Of a stretch of 47,467 nucleotides of DNA, positions 359-15,715 are shown piece by piece; position 1 is the stretch's first letter; each line of letters starts with the position of its first letter. The stretch is taken from assembly GCA_017436865.1 (NCBI GenBank), contig JAFSCH010000096.1:1-47467 (forward strand), given 5' to 3'. The stretch is from Lachnospiraceae bacterium (lineage in GTDB: Bacteria > Bacillota > Clostridia > Lachnospirales > Lachnospiraceae). The notes below the pieces were generated by a model that was not told the origin of the DNA, ran no database searches, and was given only the letters and a program-made list of their open reading frames with translations. The position numbers and the translations under genes were made by a program.

Positions 359-387
359 TTGAAAATATGCGAGAGTGGGAGTATAAT
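359..387 (+). promoter_or_regulatory. Promoter of the defence operon
   Basis: TTGAAA (359-364), a 17-nt spacer and a consensus TATAAT (382-387). Transcription would begin near 394-396, giving a ~65-nt leader with two small hairpins before the HTH gene at 461. No other promoter this good was seen before 16532, so it may drive the whole run of genes. Confidence 0.7.
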
Positions 388-460
388 GTAACCTAGGACT
401 ATTTATAGGAACCGTAAGGTTCTTCACAAATATGGGTAATCCCCATAAGAGAGGAATTAT

Positions 461-673
461 ATGGCTGTATCTTATAACGGATTATGGAAATTATTAATCG
501 ACAAGAATATGAAAAAGATGGATCTTGTTGAGAACGAAAACATTGGAATCAGTAGCAGCACACTTGCGAAGATGAGCAGGGGTGAGACTGTGTCTATGAG
601 TATCTTGGAAAAGATCTGCATGGAATTGGATTGCGATTTCGGAGACATAATTAGTATTGATAAGAGCAAGTAA
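461..673 (+). CDS. Small XRE-family HTH regulator
   Basis: This 70-aa protein is a stand-alone helix-turn-helix of the Cro/CI (YozG-like) type. The pattern is an N-terminal LWKLLIDKNMKK helix, the turn-recognition segment GISSSTLAKMSRGE (about residues 29-42) and a closing ILEKICMELDCDFGDII helix. Family members bind operator DNA as dimers and often act as autoregulators or restriction-modification controllers. It is the first gene behind the promoter at 359-387 and has an AGAGAGGAATT ribosome binding region just before its ATG. Its place ahead of a helicase and type III Mod/Res genes suggests that it times expression of the restriction genes. The HTH call is secure; the C-protein-like role is inference. 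Confidence 0.8.
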   Translation: MAVSYNGLWKLLIDKNMKKMDLVENENIGISSSTLAKMSRGETVSMSILEKICMELDCDFGDIISIDKSK

Positions 674-761
674 GAAAATTGTTGTGGTCTGTCCGTTTTA
701 AGGGACAAACGATTTTGTAAAATTGAGAAAATGTAAGTAACTGTTAACAAGGAGATTTACC

Positions 762-3700
762 ATGGATTCAATGATGGGTGGAATGAAGTTAATAGATAAT
801 GTGAACCAGACTTTGCGTGAGGATTTAAGTGAAGAAATGAAATCCGGTAGTAAGGTTTCTATTGCTGCTGCGTGTTTTTCAATTTATGCGTTTTCTGAAT
901 TAAAGAAAGAATTGAGTAGCGTAAAAGAACTTAGGTTTATTTTCACTTCACCAACATTTATTAAAGAGCGAGCTGCAAAGGAAAAGCGAGAATTCTACAT
1001 TCCTCGTCAGGAGAGAGAACGCAATCTCTATGGTTCTGAGTTTGAAGTAAAGCTTCGAAATGAAATGAATCAGAAAGCTATAGCGAAAGAATGCGCGGAG
1101 TGGATTCGAAATAAAGCAGTTTTTAAGACCAATGTAACTCATGAGAACATGATGGGGTTCATGAATGTTGATGATAAGAGTTATATGCCTATTAATGGAT
1201 TCACTACAGTGGATCTTGGCTGTGAGCGTGGTAATAATGCCTACTACATGGTACAGAAATCTGAATCTCCAATGAGCCAGGCGTACTTACAGTTATTCGA
1301 ACAGCTATGGAATGATAAAGATAAACTTCAAGACGTTACAGATGAGGTTATAAAAAGTATTACAACAGTTTACAACGAAAATTCACCTGACTACTTATAT
1401 TTTGTAACGTTGTACAACATCTTCAATGAATTCCTTGAAGATGTATCAGAAGATGTTTTGCCAAATGAAGCTACTGGTTTTAAAGAGAGTAAGATATGGA
1501 GCCTTCTCTATAATTTCCAAAAAGATGCAGCAATGGCAATTATTAATAAACTTGAAAAGTATAATGGTTGTATCCTTGCCGATTCAGTTGGTTTGGGTAA
1601 AACTTTCACAGCTTTGTCTGTAATCAAGTACTACGAGAACAGAAACAAATCTGTACTGGTTTTATGTCCAAAGAAGCTTGCTAACAACTGGAATACATAT
1701 AAGGATAACTATGTAAATAATCCTATTGCAACAGATAGGATGCGTTATGATGTCCTTTTTCACACAGATTTAAGTAGAGATAGAGGATCATCTAATGGCT
1801 TAGATCTAGATAGGCTTAACTGGGGAAATTATGACCTTGTTGTTATTGATGAGTCTCATAACTTTAGAAATGGCGGTAAGATTTCAGGTGATGACGATAA
1901 AGAAAATCGTTATCTCAAGTTGATGAATAAGGTTATAAAAAAGGGAGTAAAGACCAAGGTTCTTATGCTTTCAGCTACACCGGTAAATAATCGATTTGTT
2001 GACTTACGTAATCAGATTGCCTTGGCTTACGAAGGTGAAAGTGAATTGCTTGAATCAAAACTTGATACAAATAAAAGTATTGATGATATATTCAATCAGG
2101 CGCAGAAAGCATTTAATAATTGGAGCAAACTTGAGCCAGAACAGCGTACAACAAGTGTGCTGTTAAAGATGCTTGATTTTGATTTCTTTGAGCTACTTGA
2201 CAGTATAACGATTGCTCGTTCGCGTAAGCATATACAGAAATACTATGATACTTCCGATATCGGTACATTCCCTAAGAGAAAGTTGCCTATATCAAAGAGA
2301 CCGGGCCTTACAGATCTGGATACATCTGTAAATTACAATGTTATCTTTGAGCAATTGAATAATCTGTTGCTTTGTATTTACACGCCAACAAATTACATCC
2401 TGCCAAGTAAGGCCGCAAAATACATTGACATGTATGATTCAAAACATGTTAAAGGTGGGCTAACTCAAAAAGGACGTGAAGAAGGTATTAGACGTTTGAT
2501 GGCTATTAACCTTATGAAACGTATGGAGAGTTCTGTTTATTCATTTAGGCTCACTGTTACACGAATTAAAGATTTGATATCTGCTACGTTACAAGAGATA
2601 GAAGATTTTGAAAATGGTAAGACGAGAACAGAGCTTAAGCTTACAGATGTGACTGAGTCAGAATTCGATGAAGATGATCAGAATGATGATGTATTTGCAA
2701 TAGGCAAAAAGGTAAAAATTGATATTGCAGATATGGATTATGTTACATGGAAAAGAGAGCTTGAAGGGGACAGAGAAATATTAGTTTCTTTGTTGGCTAT
2801 GATTGCCCCAATTACTCCGGCGCATGATAGTAAATTGCAGGAACTCTTTGATGTTATAGATGATAAGATGGCTAATCCTATCAATCCAGGAAATAGGAAG
2901 CTTATCATTTTTACTGCATTTGCTGATACAGCAGAATATTTGTACGACACAGTAAGTGAGTATTGCAAAAAGAAATTCGGTTTAGATACGGCTCTTGTTA
3001 CAGGCTCCGTAGACGGAAGAACGACAGTAAAAGGACTTAGAACAGATCTGAATACTGTGCTTACATGCTTCTCCCCAATTTCCAAAGGTAAAGATTTACT
3101 TATGCCTAATCAGAAGGCTGAGATTGATGTGCTTATAGCGACTGATTGTATTTCAGAAGGCCAGAACCTTCAGGATTGTGATTATCTGATCAACTATGAT
3201 ATTCACTGGAATCCAGTTCGTATTATCCAGCGTTTTGGTCGTGTAGACAGAATTGGAAGTAAGAATGAGTATATTCAGCTTGTTAACTTCTGGCCTGACA
3301 TTACACTAGATGAATATATCAATCTGAAGGCTAGAGTAGAAACAAGAATGAAGATTGTTGATATGACAGCGACTGGCGATGATAACGTTCTTAGCCCTGA
3401 AGAAAAAACAGATCTTGAATACAGAAAGCAGCAATTAAAACGACTTCAGGAAGAAGTTGTAGATATTGAAGATATGTCAACTGGTATTTCTATAATGGAT
3501 CTTGGATTGAATGAGTTTAGATTGGACTTACTTGAATATATCAAGAATCATCCGGAATTAGAAAAAGCGCCTCGCGGAATGAATGCAGTTGTAGAGGCAA
3601 CCGATGAGTTACCATCGGGAGTGATTTTTGTTCTACGCAATGTAAAGAACGAAGTGAATATAAATAGTCAGAACAGGTTACATCCGTTCTACATGGTTTA

Positions 3701-4013
3701 TATTGCTGAGGATGGAGAAATTATAATTGATCATCTTTCTCCAAAAGATATGCTAGATTCATTTAGATTGTTGTGCAGAGGAAAGAAAGAGCCAAACGAA
3801 AAACTGTGTGCTTTGTTTAATGAAGAAACAAATGATGGAAAGAGTATGGGAAAATATTCCGAACTGTTAGGTGATGCAATTTCTTCAATAATCGAAGTGA
3901 AGGACGAGAGTGAAATGGATAGTTTCCTCAGTGGGCAGAATATGAGTTTTCTATCTGAAACAATAAATGGATTGGATGATTTTGAGTTAATAACATTTTT
4001 GGTTATTAAGTAG
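762..4013 (+). CDS. SNF2-type helicase with degenerate PLD-like N-terminus
   Basis: This is a 1083-aa SNF2/superfamily 2 DNA translocase. The N-terminal ~170 residues look like the phospholipase-D-like nuclease domain of the helicase-PLD family, but the HxK signature appears as H127-E-N129, followed by INGFT (144-148) where GSSNFT is usual. The catalytic lysine is therefore missing from this reading. The motor is intact: Walker A DSVGLGKT (274-281), DESH (363-366), LSATPVNN near 405 and a C-terminal helicase lobe with SEGQNLQ and QRFGRVDRIG. The start has AAGGAGA upstream. It is followed by DUF4391 and type III Mod/Res genes, with no terminator between. It probably remodels or translocates along target DNA as part of that system. 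Motor function is certain; the role and nuclease inactivity are inference. Confidence 0.85.
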   Translation: MDSMMGGMKLIDNVNQTLREDLSEEMKSGSKVSIAAACFSIYAFSELKKELSSVKELRFIFTSPTFIKERAAKEKREFYIPRQERERNLYGSEFEVKLRNEMNQKAIAKECAEWIRNKAVFKTNVTHENMMGFMNVDDKSYMPINGFTTVDLGCERGNNAYYMVQKSESPMSQAYLQLFEQLWNDKDKLQDVTDEVIKSITTVYNENSPDYLYFVTLYNIFNEFLEDVSEDVLPNEATGFKESKIWSLLYNFQKDAAMAIINKLEKYNGCILADSVGLGKTFTALSVIKYYENRNKSVLVLCPKKLANNWNTYKDNYVNNPIATDRMRYDVLFHTDLSRDRGSSNGLDLDRLNWGNYDLVVIDESHNFRNGGKISGDDDKENRYLKLMNKVIKKGVKTKVLMLSATPVNNRFVDLRNQIALAYEGESELLESKLDTNKSIDDIFNQAQKAFNNWSKLEPEQRTTSVLLKMLDFDFFELLDSITIARSRKHIQKYYDTSDIGTFPKRKLPISKRPGLTDLDTSVNYNVIFEQLNNLLLCIYTPTNYILPSKAAKYIDMYDSKHVKGGLTQKGREEGIRRLMAINLMKRMESSVYSFRLTVTRIKDLISATLQEIEDFENGKTRTELKLTDVTESEFDEDDQNDDVFAIGKKVKIDIADMDYVTWKRELEGDREILVSLLAMIAPITPAHDSKLQELFDVIDDKMANPINPGNRKLIIFTAFADTAEYLYDTVSEYCKKKFGLDTALVTGSVDGRTTVKGLRTDLNTVLTCFSPISKGKDLLMPNQKAEIDVLIATDCISEGQNLQDCDYLINYDIHWNPVRIIQRFGRVDRIGSKNEYIQLVNFWPDITLDEYINLKARVETRMKIVDMTATGDDNVLSPEEKTDLEYRKQQLKRLQEEVVDIEDMSTGISIMDLGLNEFRLDLLEYIKNHPELEKAPRGMNAVVEATDELPSGVIFVLRNVKNEVNINSQNRLHPFYMVYIAEDGEIIIDHLSPKDMLDSFRLLCRGKKEPNEKLCALFNEETNDGKSMGKYSELLGDAISSIIEVKDESEMDSFLSGQNMSFLSETINGLDDFELITFLVIK

Positions 4014-4026
4014 GGGGTGTATATAG

Positions 4027-4635
4027 GTGTTTGGGTTACCAGGTTCTACAGAAATAAGAAAACCGGTGCATAAAAAAATGTTATATCAGAGATTTCCTGA
4101 TGAATTAAGCGGGGAGAAAAAGGAGCGGTTTGATGCGGATATAAGCAGGATAATCATTACAAATGAGATATCAGAGGCTTCTGTAAATATACAGCCTACT
4201 GAAAAAATAAAATCAATATTTGTTGTTCAAGTGGAATTGAAGACTAGAAATTATAATGACCGGAATATTACGCTTATATCAAGGTTGTTTGGGCAAAATT
4301 TATTGATGATTCTTCACTATGAGGATGAATATCAGATAGCAATTTATGAAACGAGACTTTTAAAATCTGAATGGGAAAAAGAATTTGATCTGAGTCTTAA
4401 AGGGTTGGATTTGTCCGCTGTTTGGGAAGGATTTGTAACAGCGGTTTCTGGAATTTCAGCAAGCGAAGAAAATACGCTAGGGGAACAGATAGAAATTGAA
4501 GCCGAAAAAGAAAGATTGAGAAAATTGATTTTTGATATGGAAAGTAAAGCGAGAAAGGAAACACAATCAAAAAAGAAGTTCGCGCTGTTTCAAAAGATAA
4601 AAGAATATCAAAAAAAATTAGATGAGATGATGTAA
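4027..4635 (+). CDS. DUF4391 family protein
   Basis: This 202-aa protein begins at a GTG with GGGGGTG upstream, 13 nt after the helicase gene. It matches the DUF4391 family as I know it: an N-terminal MFGLPGSTEIRKPVHKK segment, a central beta-rich core containing VVQVELKTRNYNDRNITLIS, and a charged C-terminal coiled coil (about 155-200, rich in Glu and Lys). No enzymatic motif is established for the family; the E-L-K-T in the core is faintly reminiscent of a PD-(D/E)XK E-x-K but I would not claim it. DUF4391 genes recur beside helicases and type III methyltransferases, so a structural or adaptor role in the restriction complex is likely. The coiled coil suggests oligomerisation. Confidence 0.75.
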   Translation: MFGLPGSTEIRKPVHKKMLYQRFPDELSGEKKERFDADISRIIITNEISEASVNIQPTEKIKSIFVVQVELKTRNYNDRNITLISRLFGQNLLMILHYEDEYQIAIYETRLLKSEWEKEFDLSLKGLDLSAVWEGFVTAVSGISASEENTLGEQIEIEAEKERLRKLIFDMESKARKETQSKKKFALFQKIKEYQKKLDEMM

Positions 4636-4676
4636 AAAGTTAATGTAGATAATAATCGTTTTAGCATGGAGGATTA

Positions 4677-6632
4677 ATGAATATGGACAAATTAAATATG
4701 CAAACCGAGAATTTGGCAGACAAGAACTATGAGGTATTATCAAAATTATTTCCAAATGCAGTAACAGAAACTGTTGATAAGGACGGTAATATCGTAAGAG
4801 CAATAGATGCAGATGTTCTTAGAAATGAAATATCATGTGTTGTAGTGGAGGGAAAAGAAGAACGCTATCAGTTTACATGGCCAGATAAGAAAAAAACTAT
4901 GCGTATGATAAATGCCCCTGTACAAGGTACACTCCGTCCATTATCAGAAAAAAGTGTTAATTTCGATTCGACAGAGAACATATATATTGAAGGGGATAAT
5001 CTTGAGGCACTAAAACTTCTTCAGGAGTGTTATTTGGGTAAAGTAAAGATTATTTACATAGATCCGCCTTACAATACGGGAAATGACTTTGTATATGCAG
5101 ATGATTTTTCTGAAGATGCTGATAGCTATATAGCTAGAAGTGGACAAGTAGATGAAGTGGGTAATAGACTGGTTAAGAATATGGATTCTAATGGAAGGTT
5201 TCATACGGATTGGTTAAACATGATGTATTCAAGATTGAAATTGGCTAGAAATCTTCTGACAGAGGATGGATATATTTTTATTAGTATTGATGATAATGAA
5301 TTTGAAAATTTAAAAAAGATTTGTAACGAGGTGTTTGGCGAAGGAAATTATATTAATCATTTTGCTTGGGTATCAAATATTACTGGAAGACAGATTTCTG
5401 GTAGGGGAGCTGCTAAAACATGGGAGAGCGTACTGGTATATGCGAAAGATGCATTGAATGCTGCAGAATTCAATATTGATATATCTTTTGCTAAAGAGAA
5501 AATGCCTGATACATATAAGGGATTTAATAAAGATATTAGGAAAGATGATAGGGGTGAGTTTGCAGTAGGCGACACACTTTATAATCATAATAGGAAATTC
5601 AATGAAGAAACCCGTCCTAATTTGGTTTTCTCCATTTTCTATAATCCTGAGACTGAGGAAATTATTCCGGGGGATATAGGAGAAAAAAAAGAAGGATTTG
5701 TTGAATTATTACCTCATGCAAATGGAGATGGGGTGCATAAGTATCATGCTTGGAGATGGTCTAGAAATAAGATTATCAATGAAAGTTATGATTTGATTGT
5801 TCTGCCTAATTCTAAAAATGGATATGAAATATACACACGCATAAGAAACTTTAACACAACACTTTTAAAAGATTTGATTACTAATATATCTAATGGAGAT
5901 ACAGAGGTTCAGAAATTATTTGGAGGTAAGAAGTATTTTGATTATCCTAAATCTGTTGATTTGCTAAAAACACTTATAGGCGCTATTTCTGATAAGGATT
6001 CTATTATAATGGATTTCTTTTCTGGTTCTGGAACTACGGCGCATAGCGTAATGGAATTAAATGCTGAGGATGGAGGAAATCGTAAGTTTATCATGGTGCA
6101 GATACCAGATGAATTGGAGACGAAATCTGTAGCCTACAAAGATGGTTTTAGGACATTATGTGATATAGGTGAAGAGAGAATAAAGAAAGCTGGTTTTTCT
6201 CTGCAGAGTAGTAATAAAACGTTAGATTGTGGATTTAGAGTTTTTAAAGTTGATAGTTCAAATATGAAGGATATCTATTATAATCCTTCAGAGGTTCAGC
6301 AGACGTCTTTGTTTGGAATGGCGGATAATATAAAAGAAGATAGATCTGCTGAGGACTTACTTTTCCAAGTTATGCTGGATCTAGGGGTTTTATTATCGAG
6401 CAAAATAGAAAAAGAAACTGTTGTTAATAAAGAAGTATTCAGTGTGGCGGATGGTTTCTTAATAGCATGTTTTGATTCTGATATTACTGATGATGTCGTG
6501 AAAGAAATAGCACAGCGCAAGCCATATTATGTGGTTTTTAGGGATAGTTCAATGGCTAATGATAGTGTTGCGACAAACTTTGACCAAATTTTTCAAAGTA
6601 TTAGTCCAGATACCGTAAGGAAGGTGCTTTAA
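4677..6632 (+). CDS. mod: Type III restriction-modification methyltransferase (Mod)
   Basis: This 651-aa adenine-N6 (beta-class order) DNA methyltransferase carries the catalytic motif IV DPPYNTG at residues 129-135 ahead of the S-adenosylmethionine-binding motif DFFSGSGTT at about 445-453. The variable segment between them is the target-recognition region. In type III systems Mod recognises an asymmetric site, methylates one strand and is needed by Res for cleavage. GGAGG at 4668-4672 lies 4 nt before ATG 4677 and 10 nt before the in-frame ATG at 4683, so the second start is equally possible. The res gene follows 2 nt after the stop, as usual for mod-res pairs. I see no homopolymer or simple repeat in the gene that would suggest phase variation. 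Confidence 0.92.
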   Translation: MNMDKLNMQTENLADKNYEVLSKLFPNAVTETVDKDGNIVRAIDADVLRNEISCVVVEGKEERYQFTWPDKKKTMRMINAPVQGTLRPLSEKSVNFDSTENIYIEGDNLEALKLLQECYLGKVKIIYIDPPYNTGNDFVYADDFSEDADSYIARSGQVDEVGNRLVKNMDSNGRFHTDWLNMMYSRLKLARNLLTEDGYIFISIDDNEFENLKKICNEVFGEGNYINHFAWVSNITGRQISGRGAAKTWESVLVYAKDALNAAEFNIDISFAKEKMPDTYKGFNKDIRKDDRGEFAVGDTLYNHNRKFNEETRPNLVFSIFYNPETEEIIPGDIGEKKEGFVELLPHANGDGVHKYHAWRWSRNKIINESYDLIVLPNSKNGYEIYTRIRNFNTTLLKDLITNISNGDTEVQKLFGGKKYFDYPKSVDLLKTLIGAISDKDSIIMDFFSGSGTTAHSVMELNAEDGGNRKFIMVQIPDELETKSVAYKDGFRTLCDIGEERIKKAGFSLQSSNKTLDCGFRVFKVDSSNMKDIYYNPSEVQQTSLFGMADNIKEDRSAEDLLFQVMLDLGVLLSSKIEKETVVNKEVFSVADGFLIACFDSDITDDVVKEIAQRKPYYVVFRDSSMANDSVATNFDQIFQSISPDTVRKVL

Positions 6633-6634
6633 TT

Positions 6635-9600
6635 ATGAAGTTTAATTTTAAAATACAACAATATCAGTCAGATGCGGTAAAGAGTGTGGTAGATGTATTT
6701 AAAGGACAACCATATCAGGATAAGGTAAGCTATCGAAGAGATATTGGTAGTAAGGGTATGCAGACATATTCACAGATGTCATTTACAGGCGGGGAACAAT
6801 ATTTCTTTGACTTGACAGATGATTTTGATGATTCAGGATTTAAGAATGAGAGTATTCTATTATCCGCTGAAACATTGTTAGCTAATGTAAAAGAGGTTCA
6901 GCAGAATAATAATGTTATGATGTCTGACAAATTGATAGATAATCTTGGGGCTTGCTCACTTGATATTGAGATGGAGACTGGTACAGGAAAGACATATGTT
7001 TATATAAAAACAATGTATGAGCTTAATCAAAAATATGGATGGTCAAAATTTATTGTAGTTGTGCCATCTATTGCAATCCGAGAGGGTGTTAAAAAGTCTT
7101 TCGAAATTACGCAGGATCATTTTATGGAACAATATCATAAAAAGATTAGGTTTTTTGTTTACAACAGCAGTGACTTGAACAAACTAGATTCTTTTTCTAG
7201 TAATTCGGGAATAAATGTAATGATAATAAATATGCAGGCTTTTAATACATCTATGAAAGAAGGTGGAAAGAGTAAGGAAGCTCGTATAATTTATGATAAG
7301 CGAGACGAATTCGGAAGCAGAAGACCAATTGATGTAATAAAGGCTAATAATCCAATCATTATTTTGGATGAGCCTCAGAAAATGGGGGGCGAAGCTACAC
7401 AGAAAGCTTTGAAAAACTTCAATCCATTGTTCTGCCTTAATTATTCTGCAACTCATGCAAGGCATCATAATTTGGTCTATGCACTTGATGCCGTTGATGC
7501 GTATAACCAGAGGCTTGTAAAGAAGATAGAGGTTAAGGGGTTTCAGGTAAAGAATTTCCGTGGAACAGATCATTATTTGTACTTGGAAGATATTATTGTT
7601 TCTCCAAGCAAACCTCCTAGAGCCAAGATGGAGTATGAGAAAGATTACAAAATTAAAGGAATTAATCATGAATCAAGAATGTTTGATATTGATGATAATC
7701 TTTATGAAATATCAAACAATATGGAGCAGTACAAGGGATATCGAATTGCTGAAATTGATCCAGTAGCGGGAACAGTAACATTTACTAATGGTGAATCTAT
7801 AAAAAAAGGAGAAGTAGTCGGTGATATATCTGAAAAGGATATGCGACGTATACAGATTAGAGAAACTATTAAATCTCACCTTGAAAAAGAAGAACAGCTC
7901 TTTAATCAAGGAATAAAAACCTTGTCATTATTCTTTATTGATAAAGTTGAAAACTATCGTCAGTATGATGAGGACGGTAATGAGCTTACTGGTGAATACG
8001 GAAAGATGTTTGAGCAGGAATATAATGAGGTTGTAAACGACTATATTACTGTGTTTGATACACCATATCAAAAGTACCTTAAGTCAATAGAAGCTCATGA
8101 TACACACAAAGGTTACTTTAGTATCGATAAAAAAGGCCGTGCAGTAAACAGTGAAGTTAAACGTGGTTCAGATATCTCAGATGATATATCAGCATATGAC
8201 CTTATTCTAAAAAACAAAGAGCGATTGCTTAGTTTTGATGAGCCTACAAGATTTGTCTTTTCACACTCTGCATTGCGTGAAGGCTGGGATAACCCTAATG
8301 TTTTTCAGATTTGTACACTTAAGCATAGTGATAGTACTACGACAAAGAGACAGGAGGTAGGACGAGGGTTAAGACTTTGTGTAAACCAAGATGGATTTCG
8401 AATGGATGAGCAAAGCGTTGGCTTACAGATGGTTCATAAAATTAATAAGCTTACAGTTATTGCGAGCGAGAGCTATAAGGACTTTGTGACAGATTTACAA
8501 AAGCAAATTAAAACAGATCTTTATGAACGTCCGCGCAAGGCTTCTATGGATTACTTCCATGGAAAGACGGTCATGGTAAATGGTATTCCTGAAAAGATAA
8601 CGCAGCAACAAGCCGCCATGATTTATCAGTACATGATTAAAAATGATTATGTATCATCTGATGGTGAGGATCATGTTACAGAGCAGTATGTAGTGGATCT
8701 TGAAAATAATAATTTGGCACCTTTACCTGAGCATTTAATTGCATATGCAGAGGGAATACATAAGCTTATTCAGAGCGTATTTAATGATAAGAATCTTGAT
8801 GAAATGATAGAAGATGGTAATGAAACAAAGATTCCTAACAATGATTTGAATGAAAACTTTTACAAGAAGGAGTTTCAGACATTATGGGGATATATCAATC
8901 ATAAGTATGCCTATACAGTTTCGTTTGATACCGAAGAACTCATAAAGAAGGCAATAGAGGCTATTGACAGAGATCTCCATGTATCGATGTTACAGTATAC
9001 TACATCAATATCAGAACAAAAAGATACAATGACAGCTGATGCTGTTAAGTCTGGTGAATCATTCAAAGGTGTTAAGTCGGAGACTCAAGCTTTGAGACAC
9101 TTTGAAACAAGCCAGGTTAAATATGACCTGATAGGTAAGATTTCAGAGGCTACAGTGCTAACAAGAAAAACTGTTGCAGAGATACTCCAGGGGATAAGAC
9201 CAGATAAATTCGCTATGTATAAGAATAATCCGGAAGAGTTTATTGCCAAGGCGACAAGACTAATAAAAGAGCAGAAAGCTACAATGATTGTTGACCATAT
9301 TTCTTACAATCAGCTTGAAGGTACATATGATAGTGATATTTTCACAGCAGAAAAACATGCATCATTGGATAAAGCATTTAAAGTAGAAAAACATATCCAG
9401 CCGTATGTGTTTACAGACGGTACGGCGGATAAGTCAGTCGAGAGAAAATTTGCAGAAGAACTTGATGGAGCATCAGAAGTATGCGTATATGCAAAGCTTC
9501 CTAAGGGATTTTCTATTCCTACACCTGTAGGGAATTACAGCCCCGACTGGGCTATTGCATTTAATGAGGGTACAGTTAAGCACATTTATTTTGTCGCTGA

Positions 9601-9763
9601 AACTAAGGGAACGATGGAGAGCTTACAATTGCGTCCAGTAGAAAGAGCAAAAATATCGTGTGCTCGAAAATTGTTTAATGAAATATCTAAAGATAATGTT
9701 GTGTATCATGATGTTGATAGTTATCAAAGCTTATTAAACATAATGCAGTCAATAGATAAATGA
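6635..9763 (+). CDS. res: Type III restriction endonuclease subunit (Res)
   Basis: This 1042-aa Res subunit is an ATP-dependent superfamily 2 translocase fused to a nuclease. Walker A is METGTGKT (about 112-119), the DEAD-like box is ILDEPQKM (about 243-249) and SATH follows near 271. The C-terminal lobe contains the HSALREGWDNPNVFQ and QEVGRGLRL motifs typical of Res. The C-terminal PD-(D/E)XK nuclease shows PDWA followed by FVAETKG (about residues 969-992), giving the D...E-x-K triad. With Mod it cleaves DNA carrying two sites in the proper orientation. The length is normal and all motifs are intact, so the system looks functional. It sits directly after mod, and a further nuclease gene follows after about 25 nt. 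Confidence 0.92.
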   Translation: MKFNFKIQQYQSDAVKSVVDVFKGQPYQDKVSYRRDIGSKGMQTYSQMSFTGGEQYFFDLTDDFDDSGFKNESILLSAETLLANVKEVQQNNNVMMSDKLIDNLGACSLDIEMETGTGKTYVYIKTMYELNQKYGWSKFIVVVPSIAIREGVKKSFEITQDHFMEQYHKKIRFFVYNSSDLNKLDSFSSNSGINVMIINMQAFNTSMKEGGKSKEARIIYDKRDEFGSRRPIDVIKANNPIIILDEPQKMGGEATQKALKNFNPLFCLNYSATHARHHNLVYALDAVDAYNQRLVKKIEVKGFQVKNFRGTDHYLYLEDIIVSPSKPPRAKMEYEKDYKIKGINHESRMFDIDDNLYEISNNMEQYKGYRIAEIDPVAGTVTFTNGESIKKGEVVGDISEKDMRRIQIRETIKSHLEKEEQLFNQGIKTLSLFFIDKVENYRQYDEDGNELTGEYGKMFEQEYNEVVNDYITVFDTPYQKYLKSIEAHDTHKGYFSIDKKGRAVNSEVKRGSDISDDISAYDLILKNKERLLSFDEPTRFVFSHSALREGWDNPNVFQICTLKHSDSTTTKRQEVGRGLRLCVNQDGFRMDEQSVGLQMVHKINKLTVIASESYKDFVTDLQKQIKTDLYERPRKASMDYFHGKTVMVNGIPEKITQQQAAMIYQYMIKNDYVSSDGEDHVTEQYVVDLENNNLAPLPEHLIAYAEGIHKLIQSVFNDKNLDEMIEDGNETKIPNNDLNENFYKKEFQTLWGYINHKYAYTVSFDTEELIKKAIEAIDRDLHVSMLQYTTSISEQKDTMTADAVKSGESFKGVKSETQALRHFETSQVKYDLIGKISEATVLTRKTVAEILQGIRPDKFAMYKNNPEEFIAKATRLIKEQKATMIVDHISYNQLEGTYDSDIFTAEKHASLDKAFKVEKHIQPYVFTDGTADKSVERKFAEELDGASEVCVYAKLPKGFSIPTPVGNYSPDWAIAFNEGTVKHIYFVAETKGTMESLQLRPVERAKISCARKLFNEISKDNVVYHDVDSYQSLLNIMQSIDK

Positions 9764-9788
9764 TACCAGTTAAAAAGTGAGGTACATC

Positions 9789-10667
9789 ATGGGTGAAATA
9801 AATCCTAGAGATAAGTTATCGTCAGAAGACTATTTGTATCTATATTGGTTTGAAAAGTTTACTGATGGAGTAGAAATTGAATATGAAAATTTTCAACCAA
9901 CAGAGTCCATGATTAACCGTTTTAACGCATATATCCAGGAATGGAATAAGAGATTTGCAAGTGACCGTATTCATTATGAAAAGCCTGTTGATTGGGATGT
10001 AAATCGACAAAAGACAGGATATTTTAAAGATAAATTGCAGGTTGGTCATGAGTTTGAAATATGGGTTGAAGAACAATTTATGGCTGAGGGAATTGAGTTA
10101 AAAAATTATCTTGATGAAAAAGGACAATATACAGGTGAAAATGAATTTGGTCTTGAAATAAAGCATGATACTAAGTTAGCCGAAACAGGGAATTTGTATA
10201 TAGAATATGAGGAGCGCTTAAAAAGAGAGAATAAATGGGTTCGTAGTGGAATCCTAAAGGATGATAATACAAAATATTGGATTATTGGAAGTTTTGACGA
10301 GTATTATCTTTTTAATAAAAGTGACTTATGTAATATATATGCAAAATTACTAAAAACCCCCCATGGATATCCGGGATGTCGCTTTGTACGTGAAAAAGGA
10401 AATGGCACATCAAAAGGATTTATTATTAATAGAGACATCGCTAGTAGTATTTGTATATCAAACACCATCAATGACTTTATTAATAAAATCTCAAAAAAAT
10501 ATTTTGCGAATGGATATTATTATCACGGCAAGAGAAGTTGCAAGTATATCGTAAATAAAAGTGATGATAGTATAACAATTTTTGATGATGAAAATGAGGC
10601 GAAGCAAGCAGGATATAAGAAATGCACGGCCGACGATTGTTTTAGTGAGAATGAAAAAAATGGTTAA
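9789..10667 (+). CDS. Predicted PD-(D/E)XK nuclease, unknown family
   Basis: I do not recognise a named family. The 292-aa protein has the look of a PD-(D/E)XK nuclease in its middle: an alpha-helix GHEFEIWVEEQF carrying a conserved-type Glu, then GENEFGLEIKHD with E-x-K, then GNLYIEYEER, the strand-helix seen in related nuclease domains. An unusually aromatic stretch (KYWIIGSFDEYYLFNK) follows. An upstream in-frame GTG (9777) is possible, but GTGAGG at 9777-9782 is better read as the ribosome binding site for ATG 9789. The gene lies between res and a PC4-like gene in the same operon, so it may be an accessory restriction nuclease. The fold and role are inference from motif spacing. Confidence 0.55.
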   Translation: MGEINPRDKLSSEDYLYLYWFEKFTDGVEIEYENFQPTESMINRFNAYIQEWNKRFASDRIHYEKPVDWDVNRQKTGYFKDKLQVGHEFEIWVEEQFMAEGIELKNYLDEKGQYTGENEFGLEIKHDTKLAETGNLYIEYEERLKRENKWVRSGILKDDNTKYWIIGSFDEYYLFNKSDLCNIYAKLLKTPHGYPGCRFVREKGNGTSKGFIINRDIASSICISNTINDFINKISKKYFANGYYYHGKRSCKYIVNKSDDSITIFDDENEAKQAGYKKCTADDCFSENEKNG

Positions 10668-10680
10668 GAGGTGAAAGTAC

Positions 10681-10896
10681 ATGGCAGACTTTAAATATGA
10701 AATAGTTGAAGAAATTGGCGTTCTCTCTGAGAACGCCAAAGGCTGGAGAAAAGAGCTTAATAAAATATCATGGAACGGTGCAGAGCCAAAGTATGATATT
10801 AGAGACTGGGATCCGGAACGTGAGAAGATGGGAAAGGGTGTAACACTTACCGAAGAAGAAGCACAGGCATTAAGAGACTTGCTTAATAGTAATTAG
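10681..10896 (+). CDS. YdbC/PC4-like ssDNA-binding protein
   Basis: This 71-aa protein matches the bacterial YdbC family, homologues of the eukaryotic transcription cofactor PC4 that bind single-stranded DNA as small beta-sheet dimers. Supporting features are the N-terminal strand KYEIVEEIGVLSE, the GWRKELNKISWNG hairpin, the DIRDWDPEREKMGKGVTLT segment and the final EEEAQALRDLL helix. AAGAGGTG lies upstream of its ATG, 13 nt after the preceding stop, and GajA begins 19 nt after it. Such proteins are usually lone housekeeping genes. Here it is embedded between a nuclease and Gabija, which suggests it binds unwound DNA made by one of the neighbouring helicases. The family call is firm; the defence role is inference. 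Confidence 0.8.
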   Translation: MADFKYEIVEEIGVLSENAKGWRKELNKISWNGAEPKYDIRDWDPEREKMGKGVTLTEEEAQALRDLLNSN

Positions 10897-10915
10897 AAAA
10901 GGGGCGACTGGAGAA

Positions 10916-12616
10916 GTGGAGTTTAAGTCTATTAGTATTAAAAATTTTAGAAATTTCGAGGAGGTTACAGTTGATCTTTCTAATAAGAATATCTTTTTTG
11001 GAATGAACGATGTAGGAAAGACCAATTTTCTATATGCATTAAGATATGTATTTGATAAAGACGTAAGAAAGAACGAGATGCTGGATTCTGATTTTTATCA
11101 AAAAAATACGGCTGAACCTATTGAAATAGTAGTTGCAATCGACATAAGTGATGTAGCTGATAATGATAGTCAGAAATTGCGAGCAAGGGTAAAAGGAAAT
11201 ATTTCTTCTGGTGATAATATTGTATATATCAAGTTATATGCAGAATATAACCCTAGCGAATTAATAGCAATTCCTGAAATGTATTGGGGAGGCGATTTGA
11301 ACAATTTAGGAGAAATGAAGGCAAAATCCACATATTTTGAATTGGATTATGTGTTTAATCCAATTTATATAGATGCATATGTTGATTTAAATACTTTATT
11401 TCGAAAGAATTCAAATCAGCTTATAATTAGTCAAGATGAAGCAGACGAGGATACTATTTCTGAGATTGAAGGAAAAATACGAGACTTAAACGAAACGATT
11501 GGGTCGCTCTCTGGTGTAAAGGCATTTGAGGATAACGTTACTCCGGAATATAAGAAATTTAAGAATGAAGATATTGAAGTTTCAGTAAAGTCGGAAATTG
11601 CGATTAAAGGCTTATACTCTAATATTGTTCCTTATATTAAGAAAAATGGTGAGGATTTATTGTATCCTACGGCTGGAGAAGGGAGAAAAAAGCTTTTAGT
11701 TTACTCTATATATGATTTGCTTGCAGGGACAGATCAGAATGCAAAAAAAATCAATATTTTCCTCATAGAGGAGCCGGAGAATCACTTGCATAGGTCAATG
11801 CAAATGGCAATTTCTAGAGTTTTATTTGGCGAAGATAATTACAAATATCTATTTGTTACTACACATTCCCCATTAATACTTACAGAGATGGATAATGTTA
11901 ATCTCGTTCGAGTGTTTAATGAAGGAAGATTAGATACAAGAGGAGTGTTTTACACAGTTCCAGATGAATATAGGCAAAAAAAGAAAATGCTTAATAGAGG
12001 GCTATCAGAAGCTATTTTTGCAAAAAAAGTTTTATTGGTTGAAGGACCTTCTGAAAATGTCCTTTTTACAAAAGTGCTCTCTGAGATAAAGCCTGATTAT
12101 GAAGTTGATGGAGTGTTCATATTGCCTGTCAATGGTATTACTTTTAGAGCTTATAAAGAAATACTTGAGGCACTTGACATTAAAACCATAATCAAAACTG
12201 ATAACGACTTAAGGAAGACAAATACTCCTGGTCAATATAGTGTGCTTGGCTTTTTACGTGTAAATGGGTATGTTACAGGAGCGAAATTACCTGAAACTAA
12301 AATATCAGCAAGTGGTTCAGGGGATATAAATGCTAAGCGTGATTTATATGATAGTAATAGGATTCGCTTGGATCAGATACGTGAGGAAGAGGGAATCTTT
12401 TTGTCGCATTGTGGACTAGAAGAAGATTTGGATGAAATTCTTCATGATGAAATGGTGACATACTTACCCGAAAGTAATGGTAACCCAATTGAATATTTAC
12501 AAGATGCAAAGAATTATCATATGGTTGAGTTAGTAGATAAGCTTAGTTACGACGATTGCCAAGTTATATATGATGATTATAATTTTGCTTGCTTAAAGGA
12601 GGTAATGGAAGGATGA
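10916..12616 (+). CDS. gajA: GajA, OLD-type ATPase-TOPRIM nuclease (Gabija)
   Basis: This 566-aa protein has the architecture of Gabija GajA, an ABC-type ATPase fused to a TOPRIM nuclease. Walker A is GMNDVGKT (29-36), Walker B is FLIEEPENHLH (near 283), the H-loop is TTHSPLILTEM, and the TOPRIM acidic motifs are LLVEGPSE (near 374) and KTDNDLRKT (near 428), followed by GLEEDLDE. In characterised Gabija, GajA forms a tetramer that nicks DNA when nucleotide levels fall during phage replication, and GajB amplifies this. The start is GTG, preceded by GGGGCGACTGGAG. The stop overlaps the next gene's start as ATGA, indicating translational coupling. Size and partner agree with Gabija, and all motifs look intact. 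Confidence 0.88.
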   Translation: MEFKSISIKNFRNFEEVTVDLSNKNIFFGMNDVGKTNFLYALRYVFDKDVRKNEMLDSDFYQKNTAEPIEIVVAIDISDVADNDSQKLRARVKGNISSGDNIVYIKLYAEYNPSELIAIPEMYWGGDLNNLGEMKAKSTYFELDYVFNPIYIDAYVDLNTLFRKNSNQLIISQDEADEDTISEIEGKIRDLNETIGSLSGVKAFEDNVTPEYKKFKNEDIEVSVKSEIAIKGLYSNIVPYIKKNGEDLLYPTAGEGRKKLLVYSIYDLLAGTDQNAKKINIFLIEEPENHLHRSMQMAISRVLFGEDNYKYLFVTTHSPLILTEMDNVNLVRVFNEGRLDTRGVFYTVPDEYRQKKKMLNRGLSEAIFAKKVLLVEGPSENVLFTKVLSEIKPDYEVDGVFILPVNGITFRAYKEILEALDIKTIIKTDNDLRKTNTPGQYSVLGFLRVNGYVTGAKLPETKISASGSGDINAKRDLYDSNRIRLDQIREEEGIFLSHCGLEEDLDEILHDEMVTYLPESNGNPIEYLQDAKNYHMVELVDKLSYDDCQVIYDDYNFACLKEVMEG

Positions 12617-14151
12617 AAAAACCATTATCTCCTGTTCAAGAAGATATAGTGAATACTTCTGGGAATATTATTGTTAAAGCTAGTGCGGGTACTGGTAAGA
12701 CTCATACAATGGTAACTAAAATAGAAAAAGATATAGCTGATAATAAAAGCCATAAGGTTATTGCTGCAATCACTTTTACTATAAAGGCAGCGGGAGAAAT
12801 AAGGGATAGGTTACCAGCTATTTCAGAAGATCATTTTATTGGTACAAATAATAGTTTTGCTATTGAAGAAATCATAAAGCCATTTATGAAGGATATTTAT
12901 GGGCAAGATTATGATAAAGAAATGGGGACGGATTATGAGGTTAAAGTTGAAGACTTTGACGAAGGAATTGACGAAATAAAGGAAAGTGGAATAATTGCGT
13001 CTCTTAAGGATAACAAGGAAAATTTCATTTTTAAGCTGGCTCTTGATATTGTAAAAAATTCATTTGCTTGTCGTGAGTTTTTAAAAGCTAAATATTTTAA
13101 TATATATGTTGATGAATATCAGGATTGCGATAAGGATATGCATGCTTTCTTTATGTATTTGTGTGATGAGTTAGAAATAAATACATTTGTTGTAGGTGAT
13201 GCTAAACAATCCATATATATGTGGCGTGGAGCATATCCTAAAGCTTTTGAGAGTATTTGGGAAAAACCAAATTTTGAGAAAAAGTTCATGGGTGAAAACT
13301 TTAGATCTTGTGAGGCAATACAGAATTATTCGAATATGTTATGCAAGGAAACAAGGTCTTTCGTTAGAGAGATAGACGATGCTTCTGCAATAAGACTCGT
13401 GTGTACAAATTTAAGAGATTGGCCTATAGATATATTGAATGAACTAGATTTAAGTAAAAAAACTACAGTTTTAAGATATAGTAATGATAATGCAAGAGTT
13501 GCTGCAGAATTACTTTCAGATGACGCTAATGAGTTTATTTATGTACCGACGCCTCCGATTGCGTCTATCACGACAAATACCGCTTGGCTTTACACGGCTA
13601 TTGCTAGTTTTTTTATCATAAAAACATATTCTGTTTATGATATTATTCAAGTTATTCCGGATGAAGCTGTTGGATATAAGAGTTTGAAAAAGAACATACA
13701 AGCTCATTTGGATAAGATAAGTGAAACGTTAGATGCTAAAGATGAAGAGAACTTTATGAACAAAGTAAAGTCTTTGGCTGATTATTTGGGCTATGAGACA
13801 AAAGATATTCACTTGAAAAAACTCTACAAAACCATTATTGATGAAAATAATCATTATTATTTCTTACAAGATAGTATACAGAATATTTCAATGACATTTC
13901 ATTCATCTAAGGGACTTGAGTTTGATCAGGTGGTATTATTTGCTGAAGATTATAATCTCTATTATCCTGATAGTATTTATAATCATTACGTTGCAGCAAC
14001 AAGAGCGAAAGAGCGACTAATAATAGTTTATTTGGGTGAAAGTAAAGACCAAAATTTTTACAGAAATCTTAGCAATAAAATAGCTGACATGAATAAGAAA
14101 ACAGAAGATTTTATGAAAATAATTATAAAGGATAAAGCTTCTAATGAATAA
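12613..14151 (+). CDS. gajB: GajB, UvrD-like helicase (Gabija)
   Basis: This 512-aa superfamily 1 helicase carries Walker A KASAGTGKTHT (22-32), DEYQD (about 166-170), GDAKQSIYMWRGA (motif III), NFRSCEAIQNY (motif IV), MTFHSSKGLEFDQVV (motif V) and YVAATRAKERLII (motif VI). It is shorter than UvrD or PcrA, as expected for GajB. I start it at ATG 12613, which overlaps the gajA stop in ATGA and has AAAGGAGG at 12595-12602. A TTG at 12589 would add eight residues but lies before that ribosome binding site. GajB is thought to sense DNA ends made by GajA and to hydrolyse nucleotides. The following gene overlaps its end by 8 nt, so it may belong to the same functional unit. Confidence 0.88.
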   Translation: MKKPLSPVQEDIVNTSGNIIVKASAGTGKTHTMVTKIEKDIADNKSHKVIAAITFTIKAAGEIRDRLPAISEDHFIGTNNSFAIEEIIKPFMKDIYGQDYDKEMGTDYEVKVEDFDEGIDEIKESGIIASLKDNKENFIFKLALDIVKNSFACREFLKAKYFNIYVDEYQDCDKDMHAFFMYLCDELEINTFVVGDAKQSIYMWRGAYPKAFESIWEKPNFEKKFMGENFRSCEAIQNYSNMLCKETRSFVREIDDASAIRLVCTNLRDWPIDILNELDLSKKTTVLRYSNDNARVAAELLSDDANEFIYVPTPPIASITTNTAWLYTAIASFFIIKTYSVYDIIQVIPDEAVGYKSLKKNIQAHLDKISETLDAKDEENFMNKVKSLADYLGYETKDIHLKKLYKTIIDENNHYYFLQDSIQNISMTFHSSKGLEFDQVVLFAEDYNLYYPDSIYNHYVAATRAKERLIIVYLGESKDQNFYRNLSNKIADMNKKTEDFMKIIIKDKASNE

Positions 14152-14473
14152 TAAATATCCTGTTATTACTCTGTGTGGAAGTACACGTTTAAAAAAATTT
14201 ATGGATGTGCAGAAACAGCTAACATTAGAGGGCAACATTGTTATCAGTGTTGGCCTTTTTGGACATTCAGGAGATTCTGAAGTCTGGGAGAATATGGATG
14301 AAGGAGCCCTTACCAAAACCAAGGAAATGCTGGATGACATGCATAAGCGAAAAATCGATATGGCGGATTCAATCTATGTAATCAATGTTGGTGGTTATAT
14401 TGGTGATAGTACACGTTCAGAGATTGATTATGCTATTAGACATGGTAAGAAGGTTCGATATTTGGAGGATTAA
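14144..14473 (+). CDS. Nucleoside 2-deoxyribosyltransferase-like protein
   Basis: The 109-aa protein has the short Rossmann-like fold seen in nucleoside 2-deoxyribosyltransferase and SLOG-type proteins. Features are ITLCGSTR at the start of the first strand-loop, a long middle helix containing KTKEMLDDMHKRKIDMADSIYVINV, GGYIGDSTRSEIDYA with an acidic residue in the position of the family's catalytic Glu, and a final HGKKVRYLE strand. Family members bind or cleave nucleosides or nucleotide signals. It overlaps the gajB reading frame by 8 nt, so it is almost certainly co-translated with Gabija. A nucleotide-related enzyme attached to a nucleotide-sensing defence system is attractive, but the substrate is unknown. 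The family assignment is good; the function is inference. Confidence 0.65.
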   Translation: MNNKYPVITLCGSTRLKKFMDVQKQLTLEGNIVISVGLFGHSGDSEVWENMDEGALTKTKEMLDDMHKRKIDMADSIYVINVGGYIGDSTRSEIDYAIRHGKKVRYLED

Positions 14474-14664: not shown

Positions 14665-14683
14665 ACGAAAGGTGGTTTTTCTT

Positions 14684-15715
14684 ATGAGTATTTGGCTATT
14701 TAGAGCAGGAAGAAATGGTGAATATGAATCCAAGTTTCTTGAGGATAAGAGAATTTATCTGACTTGGAATGGACTAAACATAGATTTGGCAAAGTATCAA
14801 GACAGAGATAAGCTATTAAAGAAATTAACGGAAATGTATGAGGGCGAAAAGCCTAATACGATAAAGAACTGGGCTTCTCAGATATATCCAATAGCGCATC
14901 GCATTGAAAAGGGAGATTGGATTGTACTTCCAAGTAAATTGTCCAGCACAATTCATTTTGGAAAGGTTGTGGGCGATTATGCATTTGATGGAGATGCATC
15001 TAATCCTTACTTCCATTACAGAAATATAGATTGGTTTGCTACAGATATACCAAGAAGTAACTTTGATCAGGACATCTTGTATTCCTTTGGTGCATTCATG
15101 ACTGTTTGTAAGATTACTAGAAATGATGCTGAGCAAAGAATAAAGGATATGGCTGCAAATAATTGGAAGGTAAAAAGCGCTCCACAGAAAGTATTCGCAG
15201 ATGCAGATGACATTGAAACAGTATCTCAGACAAATATTGAAGAGGCATCGAGAGATGCTATTTCTAAGTATATTATTCAGAAGTTTCAGGGCTATAAAAT
15301 GGAACAGTTGATATCTGAAATCCTGAAGGCAAAAGGCTTTACTGTATATCATAGTAAACAAGGTGCAGACGGAGGAAAAGATATACTTGCAGCTGGCGGA
15401 GAAATGGGATTTGGTTCACCAAAGATTTGTGTTCAAGTGAAATCTCATGATACACCGGTAGATCGTCCTACACTTGATCAGCTCGGTGGAGTAATGAATA
15501 AGGTCGGCGCGGAGTATGGACTTCTCGTATCATGGAGCGGATTTAAGAGCAGCGTAGAACAGGAACGTGGTAATCAGTTCTTTAAAATTCGCCTTTGGGA
15601 TGCAAATGATGTTATAGATGAGCTGTTTAACAATTATGACAAGCTTAGCTCTGATTTACAAGCTGAGATACCTCTTAAAAGAATATGGATGCTGAGCGAT
15701 GACGGAGAGGAGTAG
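14684..15715 (+). CDS. Mrr-like restriction endonuclease with N-terminal reader-like domain
   Basis: This 343-aa protein ends in an Mrr catalytic domain: a helix GYKMEQLISEILKAKGF, then GADGGKDILA (227-236) and ICVQVKS (248-254), which supply the Asp and the Q-x-K of this PD-(D/E)XK family. Mrr-type enzymes cut modified DNA. The N-terminal ~150 residues, beginning SIWLFRAGRNGEYE and including KGDWIVLPSKLSSTIHFGKVVGDY, resemble the PUA/EVE-like wing of modification-dependent enzymes, which would read a modified base. I start at ATG 14684, with GAAAGGTGG 8 nt upstream; a GTG at 14672 would add four residues. It may complement the methylation-based system upstream by cutting foreign modified DNA. 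Nuclease family is firm; the reader domain is a weaker call. Confidence 0.75.
   Translation: MSIWLFRAGRNGEYESKFLEDKRIYLTWNGLNIDLAKYQDRDKLLKKLTEMYEGEKPNTIKNWASQIYPIAHRIEKGDWIVLPSKLSSTIHFGKVVGDYAFDGDASNPYFHYRNIDWFATDIPRSNFDQDILYSFGAFMTVCKITRNDAEQRIKDMAANNWKVKSAPQKVFADADDIETVSQTNIEEASRDAISKYIIQKFQGYKMEQLISEILKAKGFTVYHSKQGADGGKDILAAGGEMGFGSPKICVQVKSHDTPVDRPTLDQLGGVMNKVGAEYGLLVSWSGFKSSVEQERGNQFFKIRLWDANDVIDELFNNYDKLSSDLQAEIPLKRIWMLSDDGEE

Follow-up and report, generated by a model that had tools for sequence, protein, structure and literature searches.

The locus and its type III enzymes

The DNA analysed here (the window) is the 47,467-nt contig JAFSCH010000096.1 (positions 1 to 47,467, forward strand; assembly GCA_017436865.1) of a Lachnospiraceae bacterium. 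Its first part carries, on one strand, the genes of an SNF2 motor, a DUF4391 protein and the methyltransferase (Mod) and restriction (Res) subunits of a type III restriction-modification (R-M) system. These four genes are a recurrent unit, with the following arrangement in the window:

762 to 4013, + strand: SNF2 motor of 1083 aa with a degenerate PLD/HKD-like N-terminus (Pfam Helicase_C, 55 bits; SNF2-rel, 44.7 bits)
4027 to 4635, + strand: DUF4391 protein, predicted motor-methyltransferase coupler (Pfam DUF4391, 102.6 bits)
4677 to 6632, + strand: type III Mod (Pfam N6_N4_Mtase, 114.1 bits; PADLOC MTase_III, 697 bits)
6635 to 9763, + strand: type III Res with an SF2 motor and a PD-(D/E)XK endonuclease (Pfam RE_endonuc, 103 bits; ResIII, 61.4 bits)

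The window Mod and Res are clear members of the type III enzymes of the EcoP15I kind, with methyltransferase (MTase) and nuclease motifs. Res matched EcoP15I Res (4zcf_C, E 1.8e-72) and PADLOC REase_III (976 bits), and Mod matched three solved type III Mods. The window Mod has the motif order of beta-class enzymes, with DPPY ahead of FSGSG. Among the loci carrying the motor-DUF4391 module, the Mods presented DPP[YFW] (68/68) and an FxGxG-like motif (64/68), and the Res proteins the nuclease pattern (64/67) and the Walker A pattern (56/67). Known type III enzymes have the composition Mod2Res, whereas the unit of the window has in addition an SNF2 motor and DUF4391.

Recurrence of the four-gene unit

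The unit was searched for in 299 genomes of the window's family, in 391 genomes of its class and in viral contigs, where the scan for the motor gave 75 loci from the best 80 of 102 stretches (loci, genomes and contigs bear L, G and C numbers, G000 being the window's assembly). In the family, 12 genomes contained DUF4391 above the cut-off of a profile search, at 16 places in all. A motor of the same SNF2 family precedes it on that strand at 14 of these places, including L053, with an extra gene between motor and DUF4391, and L057, cut by a contig end; the two places without the motor have an internal stop in DUF4391 (G062) or a weak DUF4391 (G000:C67). Type III Res (PF19778) was present at 30 places in 26 family genomes; 11 of these carry the full four-gene unit and one adjoins a broken DUF4391. 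At the class level, DUF4391 exceeded the cut-off in 27 of the 391 genomes. The motor was found in 22 of the 26 regions taken, one region was cut by the contig start, and three, all from one genus, were without motor. A weak below-cut-off match in G657 was left out of these regions, and G171 and G105 were inspected and contained no core gene.

Altogether, the order motor, DUF4391, Mod, Res on one strand was observed in 72 loci, all four genes being present in 73. The gap between motor and DUF4391 was at most 60 nt in 67 of the 72 loci, with an overlap of exactly 4 nt in 25. DUF4391 was located within 3 kb of all genomic motors with at least 600 nt behind them (33/33; 1/1, 1/1, 12/12 and 19/19) and of 60 of the 67 such motors on viral contigs. 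The seven viral motors counted as lacking it were five of another branch (L214, L216, L218, L222 and L235), L186, so counted only since the start of its open reading frame (ORF) lies inside the end of the motor, and L220, in which Res is directly behind the motor. When at least 6 kb were available, Res followed the motor in every genomic locus (27/27; 1/1, 1/1, 9/9 and 16/16) and in 42 of 51 viral ones; the nine without Res were four of the other branch and five with DUF4391 and no Res match (L168, L173, L198, L236 and L238). The original prediction, made from the window sequence, had regarded rare accompaniment in other genomes as a point against joining the helicase and DUF4391 to mod and res. 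Such rarity was not found, and both genes accompany mod and res in a fixed order in many genomes.

Loss of the nuclease motif in the motor

The window motor was assigned by PADLOC to C3a139 'HKD+Snf2' (444 bits), a label not found in the literature searched. The Walker A lysine, the motif II glutamate and both motif VI arginines were kept in all 101 aligned motors. The N-terminal domain, previously described as PLD-like, does correspond to the HKD region of the relatives, but the HKD motif itself is absent. That region reads, for example, 'HGKMYHI...GSSNFT' in relatives and 'HENMMGF...INGFT' in the window, and an intact HxK..GSxNF motif was found in none of the 98 motors of the window's clade, the window included; 91 of these 98 have a DUF4391 ORF in their locus. 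In contrast, the motif is intact in the five motors of the Eco57I-partnered branch and in the three of the IIG-partnered branch (5/5 and 3/3; for these partner labels the scan covered a single IIG locus of the three, and the partner MTase of L216 is cut). A working PLD/HKD nuclease in the motor was considered and ruled out by the motif (0/98). This motif loss, set against the intact motif of the Eco57I- and IIG-partnered relatives, is reported here for the first time.

L255, a long branch, was excluded from a tree built on a subset of 31 motors. In this tree one branch (support 88/93, not starred) sets the type III-linked motors apart, and a single loss of HKD could therefore suffice. A quicker tree of 59 motors, with about every second clade motor and L255, needed two changes. 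Judging from its motifs, the motor is most likely a non-cleaving translocase serving Mod/Res and, because its HKD motif is lost, Res is by prediction the unit's sole nuclease whose motif is intact.

The motors of L119 and L121 have about 120 extra C-terminal residues with the pattern 'GSRDF..SGTA.GAD', an extension that presumably resembles a SLOG/DprA-like domain fused to the motor.

DUF4391 and the methyltransferase N-terminus

Over 58 loci, the median pairwise identity was 24% for DUF4391 versus 55% for the motor. The window DUF4391 gave no tblastn match in plasmids (1e-5), despite the annotated DUF4391 genes beside the motor there, and therefore the family diverges fast. A free DUF4391 was not seen in the Eco57I-partnered branch, where instead the N-terminus of the MTase matched Pfam DUF4391, below its cut-off, in three of five proteins, at 22.8, 23.0 and 19.5 bits. 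Alignment of DUF4391 with this N-terminus by hhalign gave E 1.6e-4 and a probability of 50% with 26 sequences, and E 3.3e-6 and 88% with 49 sequences (E 1.9e-7 in the other direction); none of 68 decoys fell under 1e-3, the best being 0.027. Among 230 ORFs of at least 900 aa, the DUF4391 hidden Markov model matched only the four such MTases, and the profile of the MTase N-terminus, run over 10,873 ORFs, matched, beyond its own five rows, DUF4391 proteins only. These profile comparisons indicate distant homology between DUF4391 and the N-terminus of the Eco57I-branch MTase. The most likely role of DUF4391 is to couple motor and MTase, because it stands on the MTase where the HKD motif of the motor is intact, and separately behind the motor where Mod and Res are the partners.

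The AlphaFold model of the window DUF4391 (mean pLDDT 94.5) presents an alpha/beta core and two long C-terminal helices. Foldseek gave no PDB match at E<=0.001, which does not show a new fold, and the DUF4391 profile had one match among PDB sequences, sc-apCC-6-DPH-NR (E 0.041), restricted to the C-terminal helices. In the literature searched, DUF4391 appeared only in a host-range table, and there is no description of this kind of locus as a system; the excerpts of PMC10059834 and PMC11514479 contain nothing on DUF4391. Three loci of one genus (L118, L120 and L129) have DUF4391 without a clade motor and without Mod/Res, and a similar 104-aa ORF (73.7% identical) lies near DUF4391 in L118 and L120.

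Comparison with known systems

Murray 2021 (PMC8259958) described two m4C systems in which mod is preceded, on its 5' side, by a conserved helicase-like SF2 ATPase gene of unknown function, and counted this arrangement in more than 500 genomes. E. coli NCTC86 is the strain of their Eco86II, and the excerpts of that paper do not mention DUF4391. In the approximately 151 kb viewed of the 5.14 Mb of NCTC86 we found one SNF2-mod-res locus with no DUF4391 gene there (NZ_LT601384.1, 5046030-5055447; L269), which is probably the Eco86II system. Its Mod (1040 aa) and Res (1126 aa) are longer than those of the window. Its SNF2 protein is 44% identical over 625 residues to DrmD of L250 and about 30% identical, over short stretches, to the window motor; with the window-clade profile it reached 149 bits, against 1660-1783 bits for three clade members. 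Both kinds of locus have an ATPase gene 5' of mod, but the NCTC86 SNF2 is DrmD-like and without DUF4391. Identity of the window motor with the ATPase of Murray was ruled out on sequence, the NCTC86 locus being taken as Eco86II by inference. Because NCTC86 has a DrmD-like SNF2 and the window clade another one, type III genes seem to have acquired extra SNF2 motors on two or more occasions.

Like DrmD of DISARM, the window motor is an SNF2 motor beside a methyltransferase, but the DrmD matches were weak (122 and 145 bits), the NCBI model giving 144.9 bits against a cut-off of 610. Among the matches listed for the nine proteins encoded at 461-14151 there was no DrmB, and the one DrmA match was weak and fell on the motor (70.8 bits). 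The window's genome also has DISARM genes around a type III pair, on G000:C127 (L250, 4930-18420), with DrmMII, DrmD, Mod, Res, DrmA and DrmB in one run according to PADLOC, and gene sizes and order are similar in L251, L253 and L254 of three other genomes, some of them cut by contig ends. In the excerpted descriptions of the PbeA/CxC ABC systems (PMC10853773) and the Type-2 BR systems (PMC12839542), an HKD domain precedes the SF2/SNF2 motor beside a DNA methylase, as in the window. However, the window motor is without the HKD motif, and the core is without a DUF499 or ABC-ATPase partner. The window motor reached only 38.9 bits with the PbeA model. BREX-related DUF499 systems were discarded, since none of the nine proteins in the run matched DUF499 in Pfam.

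Proposed mode of action

Type III R-M cleavage involves two head-to-head unmethylated sites, the cut being made about 25-27 bp away. According to the excerpt of PMC11142916, these enzymes use ATP for short-range remodelling and then slide to a second complex. We propose, giving it about an even chance, that the motor is docked via DUF4391 onto Mod/Res and aids restriction, presumably of phage DNA, as a non-cleaving translocase or remodeller. Mod would bind an asymmetric site, methylate it and report its methylation state, Res would supply the nuclease of the unit, and DUF4391 would be the coupler through which the SNF2 protein docks on Mod, or on Mod2Res. This SNF2 protein would descend from HKD-nuclease motors beside Eco57I/IIG methyltransferases, having lost their nuclease motif, and would translocate on or remodel dsDNA. 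Where a site is unmethylated, it would use ATP to pump DNA or to move the complex, so that cleavage would be less dependent on an encounter with a second head-to-head complex and on free sliding, or so that obstacles would be cleared. The added true translocase may thereby replace or help the type III remodelling and sliding step.

A bolder version, which we regard as tentative and rather doubtful, is a four-subunit, two-motor restriction enzyme, in which the HKD/Eco57I translocase arm, now nuclease-less, would have been grafted onto type III Mod/Res and attached by a former MTase domain, DUF4391. Such an enzyme would translocate directionally in a type I-like manner and could cut from a single site or past roadblocks.

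Co-variation was calculated over 58 of 62 loci after removing near-copies. It was high between motor and DUF4391 (rho 0.75; 0.49 given Res) and close to zero between DUF4391 and Res given the motor (0.06); the distances of motor and Res correlated at 0.84, and the target-recognition region of Mod followed no other part (-0.07 to 0.12). These values bear on an alternative that we consider unlikely, in which the genes are two operon neighbours, an ordinary type III enzyme and a motor-DUF4391 pair that borrows the Mod mark and blocks or remodels phage DNA without Res. This would agree with the co-variation of motor and DUF4391, tighter than that of DUF4391 and Mod, with the genes inserted between DUF4391 and Mod in 27 of the 72 loci, with the Res places in genomes without DUF4391 (14/30) and with the five viral contigs mentioned above, which have DUF4391 and no Res within 14 kb, four of them holding only a partial Mod. 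However, the presence of Res behind the motor in all 27 genomic loci with at least 6 kb and the motor-Res correlation of 0.84 argue against independent neighbours.

Several results weigh against the docking of the motor on Mod/Res that we propose. Because co-variation of DUF4391 and Mod given the motor is weak (0.10-0.18), docking on Mod is without direct support. The 14 Res places cited lie in genomes without any DUF4391 match (for L068, L073, L076 and L079 the contig end truncates the region 5' of the genes), and four more of the 30 have another SNF2 helicase upstream of Mod, which is DrmD in L250, the only one of the four scanned. The Res of L075, whose genome has no DUF4391 match and no strong match to the window's motor family, is 85% identical to the window Res and its closest relative outside the module. 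A quick Res tree (51 rows, some with long branches; Res of at least 900 aa, one in three viral loci) implied that the module was gained or lost no fewer than six or seven times. The module is therefore exchangeable, and by these sequence data Mod and Res do not seem to depend on it. DUF4391 is also present without this motor in the genus of L118, L120 and L129 and in G000:C67. As regards homology, the Pfam scores of the MTase N-termini (19.5-23.0 bits) are under the curated cut-off of 29.9, two of the five MTases (L222, and L216, cut by a contig end) had no DUF4391 match at E<=0.001, and the N-terminus profile recovered just 5 of 101 DUF4391 ORFs. Finally, the excerpts of PMC8259958 report that the ATPase is unneeded for methylation and that no ATPase peptide was present in partially purified Eco86II.

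Genes around the core and distribution of the unit

The other features of the same run in the window are:

359 to 387, + strand: promoter-like site TTGAAA-17-TATAAT (11/12 matches)
461 to 673, + strand: HTH_26 regulator, a variable part (Pfam HTH_26, 61.3 bits)
9777 to 10667, + strand: 296-aa protein of a family without name (PD-(D/E)XK in the original prediction), a rare addition 3' of res
10681 to 10896, + strand: PC4-like protein (Pfam, 43.2 bits)
10916 to 12616, + strand: GajA of a Gabija system, in the same-strand run (737 bits)
12589 to 14151, + strand: GajB of the same Gabija system (585 bits)
14233 to 14252, + strand: terminator-like hairpin behind GajB (terminator scan)

The six ORFs from the HTH regulator to the 296-aa protein, five of them named by Pfam, have the order, single strand and spacing originally described (gaps of 88, 13, 41, 2 and 13 nt), and the promoter-like site claimed in front of them is present, in a scan that yielded 36 sites versus a shuffle mean of 64.8, that is, below chance expectation. 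The absence of a terminator between the six genes was also borne out. The terminator scan gave 14 sites on both strands versus 5.3 expected, with no + strand site between the ORFs of the 461-14151 run, and the hairpin at 14233-14252 is the sole + strand one outside named ORFs. The proposed boundary at 10667 turned out to be arbitrary, since the same-strand run continues directly with PC4, GajA and GajB to 14151.

Neither end of the six-gene composite belongs to the core. The HTH_26 family was found within 400 nt 5' of the motor in 18 cases for 112 helicase ORFs, and a homologue of the 296-aa protein in 2 of the 299 family genomes. In front of the second homologue (L264, 9599-10474; G264) lie a Mod-like ORF (26% identity) and another ORF that matches Res over one short stretch. 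Assignment of the 296-aa protein as a PD-(D/E)XK nuclease found no backing in Pfam, where DPRP (22.7 bits, cut-off 22.1) and more weakly DUF5348 matched, nor in PADLOC or NCBIfam (no match), PHROGs (three families without assigned function, best E 1.3e-6) or PDB (no match at E<=1). The interpretation of the original prediction is partly supported.

Inside the core, same-strand ORFs of at least 95 aa were present in 36 of the 72 loci, three at the motor/DUF4391 junction, 27 at DUF4391/Mod and 21 at Mod/Res. Twenty inserts were scanned, one of them (L080) from a locus without the module. Pfam matches over the cut-off were AbiJ_NTD4, YhcG/DUF1016 nuclease, Schlafen AlbA_2, RhuM and TIR; those under it were DUF4145, a second TIR, Mrr_cat_2, DUF4365 and DUF5677, and 8 of the 20 had no match. 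Loci with inserts fall in the ranges L052-L063, L113-L121 and L169-L238, several inserts being of known defence families and many without assignment. The window core has no insert, the 296-aa protein, PC4 and Gabija lying behind it. Six loci, some with the motor module and some lacking it, have PC4 3' of Res (the window at 10681-10896, L061, L074, L075, L112 and L114), at 14-29 nt in three of them.

GajA (ATPase-TOPRIM) and GajB (UvrD-like), both nearly full length, make 10916-14151 a Gabija system, which shares the run of the window but is a separate known system; among the other mapped motor loci, a GajA- or GajB-like ORF was seen only in L213 and L191, within the stretch drawn. Behind the hairpin lies an Mrr-type nuclease (14672-15715), which together with the Gabija pair and the type III run forms a compact defence island. 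The listed contamination of the assembly is 7.68%, and the host of the contig is not beyond doubt. A passive island of co-resident defence genes with no functional link would fit these neighbours, but the fixed order on the same strand, the short or overlapping junctions and the wide recurrence of the four genes make it highly improbable.

The motor was matched in 129 plasmid records (tblastn, E<=1e-30), over at least 80% of its length in 97, and in five phage records (E<=1e-20), over at least 80% in three. The annotated motor, DUF4391, methyltransferase and Res are in order in E. coli pLAO18. The annotated core is likewise in order in Acinetobacter NEB149, where an IS separates mod from res, in E. 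coli CFT073, where a YafY-family regulator precedes it, and in E. coli NCTC11023, with a MAD1-like HTH. The Erysipelothrix phage phi1605 has the motor, Mod and Res, and a 237-aa protein, annotated as chemotaxis protein, that is in the DUF4391 position by order alone. The pLAO18 motor DNA matched 68 of 5426 complete E. coli genomes, 10 of them over at least 80%. The regulator therefore varies across carriers while the core is kept.

The module is present on plasmids, for which it is important that restriction be controlled upon entry into a new host. This agrees with another explanation, by which motor and DUF4391 would be a regulator or safety device of Mod/Res, restraining Res or stripping Mod2Res from host DNA, either while the DNA is repaired or once a new host has been colonised. 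SNF2/RapA-like proteins do remodel protein-DNA complexes. Nevertheless, Mod and Res occur without the module, and the coupler domain on MTases beside intact HKD motors points to effector work, so that we judge this regulatory role quite unlikely.

Many type III loci carry a motor without known role, and for one kind of them the lost HKD motif and the relationship between DUF4391 and the MTase N-terminus offer a testable reason. If, docked on Mod/Res as proposed, the motor-DUF4391 pair frees type III enzymes from sliding to a second site, it would explain restriction of DNA with few or badly oriented sites, and DUF4391 would gain a function.

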